From: Methylopila sp. 73B
GTDB taxonomy: Bacteria > Pseudomonadota > Alphaproteobacteria > Rhizobiales > Methylopilaceae
Assembly (NCBI RefSeq): GCF_000526315.1
Contig: NZ_JAFV01000001.1
Span: 434,001 to 498,000 of the forward strand
Direction of reading: 5' to 3'
Length of the DNA: 64,000 nucleotides
The translations under genes were made by a program, and so were the position numbers. Of this stretch, positions 37,185 through 53,667 are shown one piece after another. Position 1 is the stretch's first letter, and each line of letters opens with the position of its first letter. Below the pieces are notes generated by a model. It made no database searches and was not told where the DNA came from. It saw only the letters and a program-made list of their open reading frames with translations.

Positions 37185-37287
37185 GGGGGTTCCGCCCGGG
37201 CGGTTTGTCCACAGCCGCGCGCCGGACGCGAAACCCGGCCGATCGCCCTTGTGGAGCCGACATCGATTTGTTATCAGCACCGCCGTC

Positions 37288-37372
37288 GCGGTCGTGGCGG
37301 AACTGGTAGACGCGCAGCGTTGAGGTCGCTGTGGGGCAACCCGTGGAAGTTCGAGTCTTCTCGACCGCACCA
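37288..37372 (+). tRNA. tRNA-Leu (anticodon GAG)
   Basis: An 85-base tRNA. The acceptor arms GCGGTCG (37288-37294) and CGACCGC (37362-37368) pair fully, and CCA is encoded (37370-37372). The anticodon stem CAGCG/CGCTG encloses loop TTGAGGT with anticodon GAG (37322-37324), reading CUC. A long variable arm and T-loop TTCGAGT are present. A strong terminator follows. Confidence 0.96.
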
Positions 37373-37408
37373 GACATACTGGTCGCACAATCTACCTCAT
37401 GCGATCGC

Positions 37409-37443
37409 AAAAGACCCCGGAAGCCCAGCTTCCGGGGTCTTTT
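37409..37443 (+). terminator. rho-independent terminator after tRNA-Leu
   Basis: AAAAGACCCCGGAAG (37409-37423) and CTTCCGGGGTCTTTT (37429-37443) form a perfect 15-bp stem with a 5-base loop, ending in T4. It could also work for the convergent DUF2235 gene from the other side, since the stem begins with A4. Confidence 0.9.
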
Positions 37444-37479
37444 GATTCGTGCGGCGGCCGTCGCGCTCGAAAGCCGACC

Positions 37480-49775: not shown

Positions 49776-52517
49776 TTGGCCGATCCTACCGATCCGACGT
49801 CCGGCGGCCCGTCCGACATCAAGCCCGTCTCCATCGCCGACGAGATGCGCCGCTCGTATCTCGACTACGCGATGAGCGTCATCGTCGCGCGCGCGCTCCC
49901 CGACGTGCGCGACGGCCTGAAGCCGGTGCACCGCCGCATCCTGTTCTCGATGAACGAGAACGGCTACTTCCCCGATCGGCCCTACCGCAAGTCGGCCCGC
50001 GTGGTCGGCGACGTCATCGGTAAGTATCACCCGCACGGCGACCAATCGATCTACTTCGCGCTCGTCCGCATGGCGCAGGAGTTCTCGATGCGGCTGATGC
50101 TGGCGGACGGCCAGGGCAACTTCGGCTCGATCGACGGCGATATGCCGGCCGCCATGCGGTACACCGAGGTGCGGCTGGCGAAGCCCGCCATGGCGCTGCT
50201 GGCGGACATCGACGAGGACACGGTCGACTTCCAGGACAACTACGACGGCTCCGAGAAGGAGCCTTCGGTCCTGCCGGCGCAGTTCCCGAACCTGCTGGTC
50301 AACGGCGCGGGCGGCATCGCCGTCGGCATGGCGACCAACATCCCGCCCCACAATCTCGGCGAAGTGGTCGACGCCTGCGTGGCGCTGATCGAGAAGCCCG
50401 AGATGGAGGTCGAGGAGCTGCTCGAGATCGTCCCCGGTCCGGACTTCCCGACCTCGGGCCTGATCCTCGGCCGCGGCGGCATCCGCTCCGCCTACACCAC
50501 CGGCCGCGGCTCGGTGATCATGCGCGGCCGGGTCGAGGTCGAGACGGTGCGCAAGGAGCGCGAGGCGCTCATCGTCTCCGAGCTGCCCTACCAGGTGAAC
50601 AAGGCGACTCTGGTCGAGAAGATCGCCGAGCTGGTCCGCGACAAGCGCGTCGAGGGCGTGTCCGACCTGCGCGACGAGAGCGACCGTCAGGGCATGCGGA
50701 TCGTGGTCGAGCTGAAGCGCGACGCGGTCGCCGACGTGGTGCTGAACCAGCTCTACCGGTTCTCCCAGCTGCAGGCGACGTTCGGCGTCAACATGGTGGC
50801 GCTCAACGGAGGCAAGCCGGAGCTGATGAACCTGCGCGACGTGCTCGTCGCCTTCCTCGCGTTCCGCGAGGAGGTGATCAGCCGCCGCACCAAGTTCCGC
50901 CTCAACAAGGCGCGCGACCGGGCGCATGTCTTGGTCGGCCTCGCGATCGCGGTCGCGAACATCGACGAGGTCATCCAGACGATCCGCACCGCGCCGGACC
51001 CGGCGACGGCGCGCGACCGCCTGATGGACCGCGACTGGCCGGCGATGGACGTCGCGCCGCTGATCGAGCTGATCGACGACCCGCGCCACAAGCTGGCCGC
51101 GGACGGCACCTATCGCCTCTCGTTCGAGCAGGCCCGCGCCATCCTCGAACTGCGGCTCGCCCGCCTCACGGCGCTCGGGCGCGACGAGATCGCGGAAGAG
51201 CTCGACAAGATCGCGGTCGAGATCGCCGACTACCTCGAGATCCTGCGCTCGCGCGAGCGGGTGCAGGCGATCGTGCGCGAAGAGCTGCTGGCCGCGAAGG
51301 CCCAGTTCGCCACGCCGCGGCGCACCGAGATCCTCGAGTCCGACGCCGACTTCGAGGACGAGGACCTGATCCAGCGCGAGGACATGGTCGTCACCGTGTC
51401 CCACGCCGGCTACGTCAAGCGCGTGCCGCTCGCGACCTACCGGGCGCAGCGCCGCGGCGGCAAGGGCCGCTCCGGCATGTCGTTCCGCGAGGAGGACTTC
51501 GTCGCCCGGCTGTTCGTGGCGAACACCCACACCCCGGTGCTGTTCTTCTCGTCCCGCGGCCAGGTCTACAAGGAGAAGGTGTGGCGTCTGCCGCTCGCGG
51601 CTCCCCAGGCCCGCGGCAAGGCGCTGGTCAACATGCTGCCGCTGGAGCAGGGCGAGCGCATCACGACCATCATGCCGCTCACCGAGAACGAGTCGGAGTG
51701 GGCGAAGTACGACGTGATGTTCGCGACCTCGGGCGGCACCGTCCGGCGCAACAAGCTGTCCGACTTCGTCAACGTCAACCGCTCCGGCAAGATCGCCATG
51801 AAGCTCGACGAGGGCGAGGCGATCGTCGACGTGCAGATCTGCACCGAGGACGACGACGTGCTGCTGACGACGGCCGGCGGCCAGTGCATCCGCTTCCGGG
51901 TCGACGACGTCCGCGTGTTCAAGGGCCGCGATTCGGTCGGCGTCCGCGGCGTGACGCTGGCGAAGGACGACAAGGTCATCTCGCTCTCGATCCTCCGCCA
52001 CTTCGAGGCGGAGCCGGCCGAGCGGCTGGCCTATCTCAAGCTCGCGAACGCCGTGCGTCGCGGCCAGGGCGAGAGCACGGCCGAGGAGACCACGGTCGAG
52101 GCGGACGAGGACGGCGCGGCTGAGGAGGTCGCGGTCACGCCGGAGCGCTACGCCGCGATGAGCGCGGCCGAGCAGATGATCCTCACGCTGTCGGAGAACG
52201 GCTACGGCAAGCGCTCGTCGTCTTTCGAGTACCGGGTCACCGGCCGCGGCGGCAAGGGCATCGTCGCCATGGTCACCAACGAGCGCAACGGGCCGCTGGT
52301 GGCTTCGTTCCCGGTTGAGGACGGAGATCAGATCATGCTGGTCACCAACGCCGGCCAGCTGATCCGCTGCCCCGTCGAGGGCATCCGTCTCGCGGGCCGC
52401 TCGACGCAGGGGGTGATCGTGTTCAACACCGCCGAGGGCGAGCGCGTGGTCTCCGTCGAGCACATCGGCGAGGAGGAGACCGCCGAGGCAGGCGACGAGG
52501 GCGACGCCGGCGCCTGA
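49776..52517 (+). CDS. gyrA: DNA gyrase subunit A
   Basis: A 913-aa type II topoisomerase subunit. The N-terminal breakage-reunion domain has [23 protein letters not shown] and the catalytic Tyr129 in [10 protein letters not shown]. The C-terminal beta-pinwheel holds the GyrA box QRRGGKG (near residue 565) that allows negative supercoiling. Start is TTG at 49776, without a strong ribosome site. Residues at the quinolone-binding positions are unusual: [14 protein letters not shown] has Gln90 and Phe94 where E. coli has Ser83 and Asp87. An acidic insert ([17 protein letters not shown]) and acidic tail are present in the C-terminal domain. Confidence 0.96.
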
Positions 52518-52594
52518 GCGGGGAAAGAAAGGCTTAAGCTTAACTTCCGGTCATCGTTGTGGTGCGCATTCGACCATGACATCGTCCGGACGTC

Positions 52595-52670
52595 GGCCCG
52601 GTGGGGGAATGGCTACTCTAGGAAGCGGGAACGCTTCTACATCCTGGTTCAAGTCCAGGCTGGGCCTCCA
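52595..52670 (+). ncRNA. tRNA-like gene without a normal anticodon loop
   Basis: A 76-base sequence with the tRNA plan. Acceptor arms GGCCCGG (52595-52601) and CTGGGCC (52660-52666, offset by one G-T pair) match, followed by a discriminator T and encoded CCA (52668-52670). D-arm GGGG/CTCT has A14, GG and A21. The T-arm is CCTGG-TTCAAGT-CCAGG, fully canonical. But the anticodon arm is GAAGCG-GGAA-CGCTTC, a 6-bp stem with a GNRA-type tetraloop; there is no U33 and no 7-base loop. It cannot decode in the usual way. A perfect 18-bp terminator follows, so it is probably transcribed. Confidence 0.6.
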
Positions 52671-52675
52671 AACTA

Positions 52676-52714
52676 CAAGACGGCGCGTCGCAGGCTCTGC
52701 GACGCGCCGTCTTG
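52676..52714 (+). terminator. strong hairpin after the tRNA-like gene
   Basis: CAAGACGGCGCGTCGCAG (52676-52693) and CTGCGACGCGCCGTCTTG (52697-52714) form a perfect 18-bp stem with a 3-base loop, beginning five bases after the CCA of the tRNA-like gene. The T-run is short (CTTG), but the stem is very stable. Confidence 0.75.
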
Positions 52715-52824
52715 CGTTCGGGAGTGGAAAGCCGCCCGGCCGCTCCCCAGGGGCCGGGCGTCCTCGCGCGCGTTCGGGACGAAGAGGGGCGGGATTTCGT
52801 CCAGACGCCGTTTCGCGGCGGGGG

Positions 52825-53169: not shown

Positions 53170-53667
53170 ATGCCCCGCACCGCCTTCTACGCCGGCTCCT
53201 TCGACCCGGTGACCAATGGACACCTCGACGTGGTCGCGCGCGCGCTCACTCTCGCGGATCGGCTCGTCGTCGGAGTGGGGGTCCATGCCGGCAAGCAGCC
53301 GATCTTCCCGGCCGAGGAGCGCCGCGAGCTGATCGCCGCGACCTGCGGGCCGCTGGCCGAGACCGCGGGCGTCGCCCTCGAGATTGTCGCGTTCTCGGGT
53401 CTGGTCGTCGAGGCCGCGCGCGCGGCCGGCGCGACGCTGCTCGTCCGCGGGTTGCGGGACGCGACCGACTTCGATTACGAGATGCAGATGGCGGGCATGA
53501 ACGGCGAACTCGCGCCGGACGTGCAGACCGTCTTCCTGCCCGCCGGTCCCGCGTCCCGCTTCATCACCGCCACGCTCGTCCGCCAGATCGCGGCCATGGG
53601 CGGCGACGTCTCGGCCTTCGCGCCGCCCGAGGTCGCGCGCCGGCTCGCCGATCGGTTCCGTTCATGA
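53170..53667 (+). CDS. coaD: phosphopantetheine adenylyltransferase
   Basis: A 165-aa nucleotidyltransferase of coenzyme A synthesis; it joins AMP to 4'-phosphopantetheine to give dephospho-CoA. The start [22 protein letters not shown] has the NGHLD (HxGH-type) motif, followed by [22 protein letters not shown] and a [20 protein letters not shown] segment equivalent to the ISSTxVR motif. The stop region overlaps an in-frame ATG of the following cyclophilin gene, and gene order gyrA-coaD-ppi is typical of alphaproteobacteria. Confidence 0.95.

Follow-up and report, generated by a model that had tools for sequence, protein, structure and literature searches.

The question raised by a 64,000-nucleotide stretch of Methylopila sp. 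73B (contig NZ_JAFV01000001.1 of assembly GCF_000526315.1, positions 434,001 to 498,000, forward strand; hereafter the window, from whose first letter positions are counted) is what a tRNA gene is kept for when a sealed helix stands where its anticodon loop should be. Judging by its sequence, the element in question (52595–52670) is a tRNA-Cys paralogue that probably works outside ordinary protein synthesis. That it has some non-decoding function we regard as very likely; that this function would be to carry cysteine outside the ribosome is the reading we favor, tentatively.

The element and its surroundings comprise the following features, the two neighboring genes being given for context only.

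52595–52670, + strand: tRNA-Cys-like RNA gene, from the sequence, ARAGORN and the fold; kept in all 13 genomes of the genus.
52595–52601 paired with the 52660–52666 region, + strand: acceptor of this gene (GGCCCGG/CTGGGCC).
52621–52638, + strand: sealed anticodon arm, a 7-bp stem with a GGAA cap replacing the anticodon loop (from the fold; pairs 27-44 to 33-38 of the RNA).
52676–52714, + strand: 18-bp hairpin with a 3-base loop, terminator-like, although no T run follows it here (from the fold).
52557–52559, + strand: TTG at −38, possibly the start of a −35 promoter box (from comparison within the genus).
49776–52517, + strand: gyrA, the upstream neighbor (NCBIfam NF004043 and TIGR01063).
53170–53667, + strand: coaD, the downstream neighbor (NCBIfam TIGR01510), at most 1.5 kb downstream in 11 of the 13 genus genomes.

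The original prediction had described a 76-base tRNA body with CCA, acceptor, T arm and D arm, and both the sequence and ARAGORN bear this out: the cloverleaf has a paired acceptor, a complete D arm, a T arm reading CCTGG-TTCAAGT-CCAGG and an encoded CCA at the 3' end, preceded by the discriminator U73 that is a trait of tRNA-Cys, and the elbow-contact bases U8, A14, G18G19 and TTC are all present in the D and T arms. At 52595–52670 (+) ARAGORN called a 'tRNA-???', giving its anticodon as the four bases 'ggaa'; this program, which also seeks tmRNA, called none of the latter in the window. The canonical loop of seven bases with U33 is missing, and a GGAA tetraloop takes its place; in this the prediction was right, although the stem that it gave as 6 bp folds as 7 bp, with G.U as its outermost pair. 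Similarly, the 18-bp hairpin that it had called a perfect terminator does start five bases after CCA, but the lack of a T run and a negative terminator scan (below) speak against that designation. Folding energy of the 76-mer was unexceptional (z −1.66, with 15 of 200 shuffles as good), and that of the 76-mer plus hairpin (126 bases) had a z of −6.59.

Its origin could be traced within its own genome. Among 44 distinct tRNA sequences the closest to the element was tRNA-Cys, scoring 29.5 vs. 15.0 for the next (a tRNA-Met). The comparison set was drawn from the genome's RF00005 loci, with each gene entered separately, and is perhaps short of a few tRNAs (for example, it contains no tRNA-Ile). 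The second tRNA-Cys trait, the anticodon GCA, is gone, and all 13 genus copies have GGAA instead. Each of these 13 genomes has an ordinary tRNA-Cys as well, 99–100% identical to the window genome's own copy, and cysteine decoding is therefore covered without the element; tRNA-Ser(gga) and tRNA-Phe(gaa) are present in the element's genome as well. One full-length cysteinyl-tRNA synthetase (CysRS) was found in each of 18 genomes, where other PF01406 matches were partial and reached at most 36 bits; a second CysRS was sought in these genomes and not found. Of the possibilities first offered for the element, the best fit is a decayed tRNA, here one derived from tRNA-Cys, that has been retained in a different role.

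It is comparison with other genomes that makes the case for the element. A 166-base query matched 16 of 101 genomes, including all 13 of the genus (its own among them), and all 13 carry the GGAA-capped element, which puts it beyond chance. At least nine named records have the GGAA form, from Methylopila, Hansschlegelia, Chenggangzhangella and one labelled Chelatococcus sambhunathii; ARAGORN labels 12 of the genus copies 'ggaa' and reads L008 as tRNA-Pro. Absence from close relatives, or an ordinary tRNA at the same place, would have counted against the original prediction, and neither was seen in the 13 genomes. In the genus alignment, which has 12 sequences (11 of them distinct), every cell of the 22 pairs shows standard pairing (100%), as against 28–61% of cells paired in a control where the partners were slid by one to three columns. 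The compensatory changes suggested as a check on the capped stem were there, on both sides of four of the seven anticodon-stem pairs and with pairing fully kept, while all five T-stem pairs were invariant. The 13 copies share a mean pairwise identity of 97% in the body (52 bases) and 69% in the anticodon region; in the flanks it falls to 46% over 60 bases upstream and 57% over 45 bases downstream. Simple decay is excluded by this difference between body and flanks. This conservation and covariation are what selection on a nondecoding tRNA, i.e., a pseudo-tRNA with an extra-translational role, should leave, the inability to decode being one that we infer from the missing anticodon loop. The flanks hold recurrent signals: in each of the 13 genomes a TTG begins somewhere from −36 to −39 (background about 6.6% per set of five start positions), and a hairpin lies within 50 bases behind CCA in all of them (−22 to −37 kcal/mol, z −3.5 to −7.9 by simple shuffles), followed in several relatives by T-rich tails.

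Copies with other loops turned up across the order. Pattern scans gave at least 121 stretches, at least 63 of them (at least 36 distinct) with a full tRNA body; the full-body pattern fixes acceptor and T arm, so the constancy of these two in pattern-found copies is partly by construction. Dropped were 58 stretches, namely two cut at the locus end (L134, L174), one masked (L152), one ordinary viral tRNA-Cys (L213), and the rest for want of a tRNA body. The viral contig of L213 packs 22 tRNA genes, the ordinary tRNA-Cys included, into 12.5 kb of its 518 kb. Among the matches listed (63 copies), the anticodon region holds GCA in 54, as UGCA in 50 and without the preceding U in four (two Afipia and the GGCA tetraloops of CPCC 101076 and palsa_922); the other nine read GGGAAC and belong to the genus. 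The 25 aligned f35-type copies retain UGCA without exception, with 99.6% of cells paired and three of six stem pairs changed on both sides. The T-arm pattern was found in 34 of 397 genomes of the order (13 of the genus, 16 of the 18 of f35 including 14 of 14 in g37, four of f41 g91 and one of f6) and in two of 385 genomes from a class-wide draw, both already found. With covariance models, further copies came to light in G015, G016, G017 (f1 g3), G045 (f29), G220 (f24), G041 (f25), G052 (f36) and G022 (f6), the matches read being those above about 40 bits and some of those at 38–40 bits. Outside the order no second copy was seen in a small sample of 40 genomes, each with one strong match; this sample leaves out seven extra matches of 86–89 bases, and two extra 74-base matches were tRNA-Gln. 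ARAGORN identified 56 of 60 first matches as tRNA-Cys(gca) and did not position the other four.

The loops of these relatives come in three sizes. Seven-base loops are ordinary GCA loops (L243–L246, L331), GUGCAUA (L335) or CGGCAAA (L292); hexaloops are GUGCAA, GUGCAU, GUGCAG, CAGCAA and, without GCA, AUGAAA (L337, G015); and the tetraloops across the wider family are GGCA and GGAA. Loci L243–L246 (G206, G159, G318, G185; f41 g91) combine an ordinary anticodon loop with the divergent family's T arm, and at L243 and L244 the adjacent long frame on the opposite strand presumably encodes something resembling an AMP-binding enzyme. The second tRNA-Cys at L331 (G022), 835–908, likewise has an ordinary loop, but its first acceptor pair is an A-C mismatch. 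Genomic place also differs outside the genus, e.g., near carA/carB rather than gyrA: carB (NCBIfam) and a greA-like gene (by Pfam in L100, by resemblance in L337) are just upstream in CPCC 101076 and G015, a carB-like frame (by resemblance) is upstream in G016 and G017, and in the f35-type loci read carB is downstream, with carA also upstream in L102 and L106 (names tested on L106 and L204).

A tree built without the anticodon arm (53 columns) separated 23 ordinary tRNA-Cys from 30 second copies on a branch with support of 97/99, and an earlier 59-row tree separated 51 copies from seven ordinary tRNA-Cys together with L243 (99/98). With few columns, mostly unresolved inner forks and three long-branch rows, a single origin of the second copies is allowed by these sequences, not proven. 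A more ambitious scenario, which we consider unlikely to hold as a whole, is that an old second tRNA-Cys lineage in Hyphomicrobiales left the genetic code, its loop closing stepwise from the seven-base GCA loop through a GUGCAN hexaloop and GGCA to GGAA while acceptor and elbow stayed fixed; charged by the ordinary CysRS, it would bring cysteine to an acceptor off the ribosome, and the window's genus would be the end state without an anticodon.

Taken together, the unchanging acceptor and elbow, the encoded CCA, the conserved signals in the flanks and the sealed arm point to a non-decoding RNA that acts through its upper half. The constancy of UGCA in the f35-type copies and the GCA of most relatives point to CysRS, and the loss of GCA from the window's genus and G015 indicates that what is kept needs no GCA. 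Such an RNA would be transcribed from its own signals, trimmed like a tRNA and folded into an L; it would be unable to read a codon and would act off the ribosome through its acceptor–elbow half. In the likeliest single mechanism, the cysteine carrier, the single cellular CysRS would charge it via U73 and the acceptor, the charged RNA would take cysteine to a non-ribosomal acceptor, and the sealed arm would exclude this cysteine pool from translation. According to PMC9976931, GCA is a major cysteine determinant and U73 alone can give minihelices cysteine identity; weak charging is therefore possible, and in this genus, with GCA gone, charging would probably be weak.

Several results weigh against the carrier. 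The absence of GCA from the whole genus and from G015 makes it doubtful that CysRS charges the RNA efficiently; a synthetase dedicated to it was not found in 18 genomes, nor any partner gene when 18 genomes with second copies were compared with 17 without a detected one; and a consensus scan of 52450–52800 found neither promoter nor terminator. Presence in the order is patchy: of 40 further genomes 36 matched, and only four had a second Cys-like match (a count that leaves out three weaker ones, two in G020 and one in G059), so the function must be dispensable for many. Finally, the minimum-energy RNAfold structures differ for several of the 12 genus rows, but ordinary tRNA-Cys misfolds likewise and single-sequence folding was thus not used as evidence.

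One candidate for a general partner was rejected. This methyltransferase (L106:2946–3647; Pfam Methyltransf_11, far below all NCBIfam model cut-offs) lies within 150 bases upstream on the same strand at 47 of the 54 pattern loci outside the genus (among the matches listed), and in the f35 genomes tested it was present in four with a copy and absent from two without. It matched only four of the 18 genomes with second copies, however, and one of the 17 without a detected one.

The first rival, close behind the cysteine carrier, is an uncharged tRNA mimic that would use its acceptor and elbow to bind a tRNA-binding protein, be it CysRS, EF-Tu, a nuclease or a modifying enzyme, and would regulate or titrate it. 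We take this to be a genuine possibility, if a somewhat weaker one: a mimic could well lose GCA, as the genus and G015 (L337) did, while its acceptor and T arm stay, and a poorly charged pseudo-tRNA of Bacillus cereus has been proposed to form the tRNA-like part of a regulatory RNA (PMC3399842), but a pure mimic has no need of the complete CCA and U73 that are kept here, nor does it explain why most of the relatives found retain GCA.

Far less probable is a cis element of the gyrA transcript, i.e., a 3' tRNA-like structure punctuating or stabilizing the mRNA, or a DNA-level site. The position invites it, the element lying 78 bases after gyrA and gyrA being upstream in 12 of the 13 genus genomes; yet in the remaining genome, G007 (L013, L155), gyrA was not found upstream, relatives outside the genus are located elsewhere, and the conserved TTG stands between gyrA and the element. 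We give still less credence to a tRNA that goes on decoding through its unusual loop (e.g., cysteine codons or a frameshift), since the ordinary seven-base GCA loops of some second copies (L243–L246, L331) and the UGCA of the f35-type copies would suit decoding, but the window's element has neither U33 nor GCA, its GGAA is closed by G-C in 13 of 13, and tRNA-Cys, tRNA-Ser(gga) and tRNA-Phe(gaa) of ordinary form are already in the genome. Least credible of all is a decaying pseudogene or integration remnant, in spite of the destroyed anticodon and the partial tRNA genes that integrating elements commonly leave (PMC9897764), because the gene is complete rather than a fragment and keeps its conserved body and full pairing in 13 of 13 genomes amid diverged flanks.

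The nearest published kinds are the B. cereus pseudo-tRNA and a staphylococcal cell-wall tRNA-Gly. The former, tRNAOther, is like the proposed element a non-translational tRNA-like gene beside a normal tRNA set, and its deletion alters a phenotype; it differs in keeping a Trp anticodon, adjoining a genomic island and being embedded in larger RNAs (PMC3399842), whereas the window's element has no anticodon and derives from tRNA-Cys. The tRNA-Gly of the pentaglycine bridge is also an extra, altered copy diverted from EF-Tu and translation to non-ribosomal use, but it still has its anticodon and is efficiently charged (PMC8007984), while in ours that arm is sealed. tmRNA, too, has a tRNA-like fold without an anticodon, one that can be aminoacylated (PMC3985003). 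It differs from tmRNA in having no tag reading frame and in retaining the anticodon arm as a capped helix. Bacterial allo-tRNAs, with their novel cloverleaf, are non-standard tRNAs from genome mining, some related to tRNA-Cys; they alter acceptor and T-stem lengths but retain the anticodon. A literature search that covered few subscription papers found no description of an anticodon-sealed tRNA-Cys family, and of two Bradyrhizobium transcript papers the main text of PMC4842269 does not contain 'tRNA' and that of PMC5082802 contains no searched term.

Few tRNA-like RNAs are known to be kept for non-translational work, and the B. cereus and staphylococcal examples keep the anticodon. One bacterial order, with cultivable members including Bradyrhizobium, offers a natural series of anticodon-loop closures, which makes it testable whether cells keep a non-decoding cysteine tRNA, and what uses it. 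Such an element is easily missed, the general Rfam tRNA model being silent and ARAGORN giving only 'tRNA-???'. Even with E values up to 10 allowed, RF00005 did not match in 301 bases around the element, which is absent from the genome's 44 RF00005 matches; the window's tRNA-Leu scored 50.3 bits with the same model in an equal-sized search. Rfam at gathering threshold found nothing in the whole window, a negative that carries no weight alone because tRNA-Leu was missed too. Two minor observations came from these searches: a weak Rfam His_leader match at 37274–37447 (32.1 bits, gathering score 49) overlaps tRNA-Leu(gag) and is likely due to chance, and the weakest of the genome's 44 RF00005 matches is a selenocysteine tRNA (tca) at G000:C1:509967-510057 (L063).
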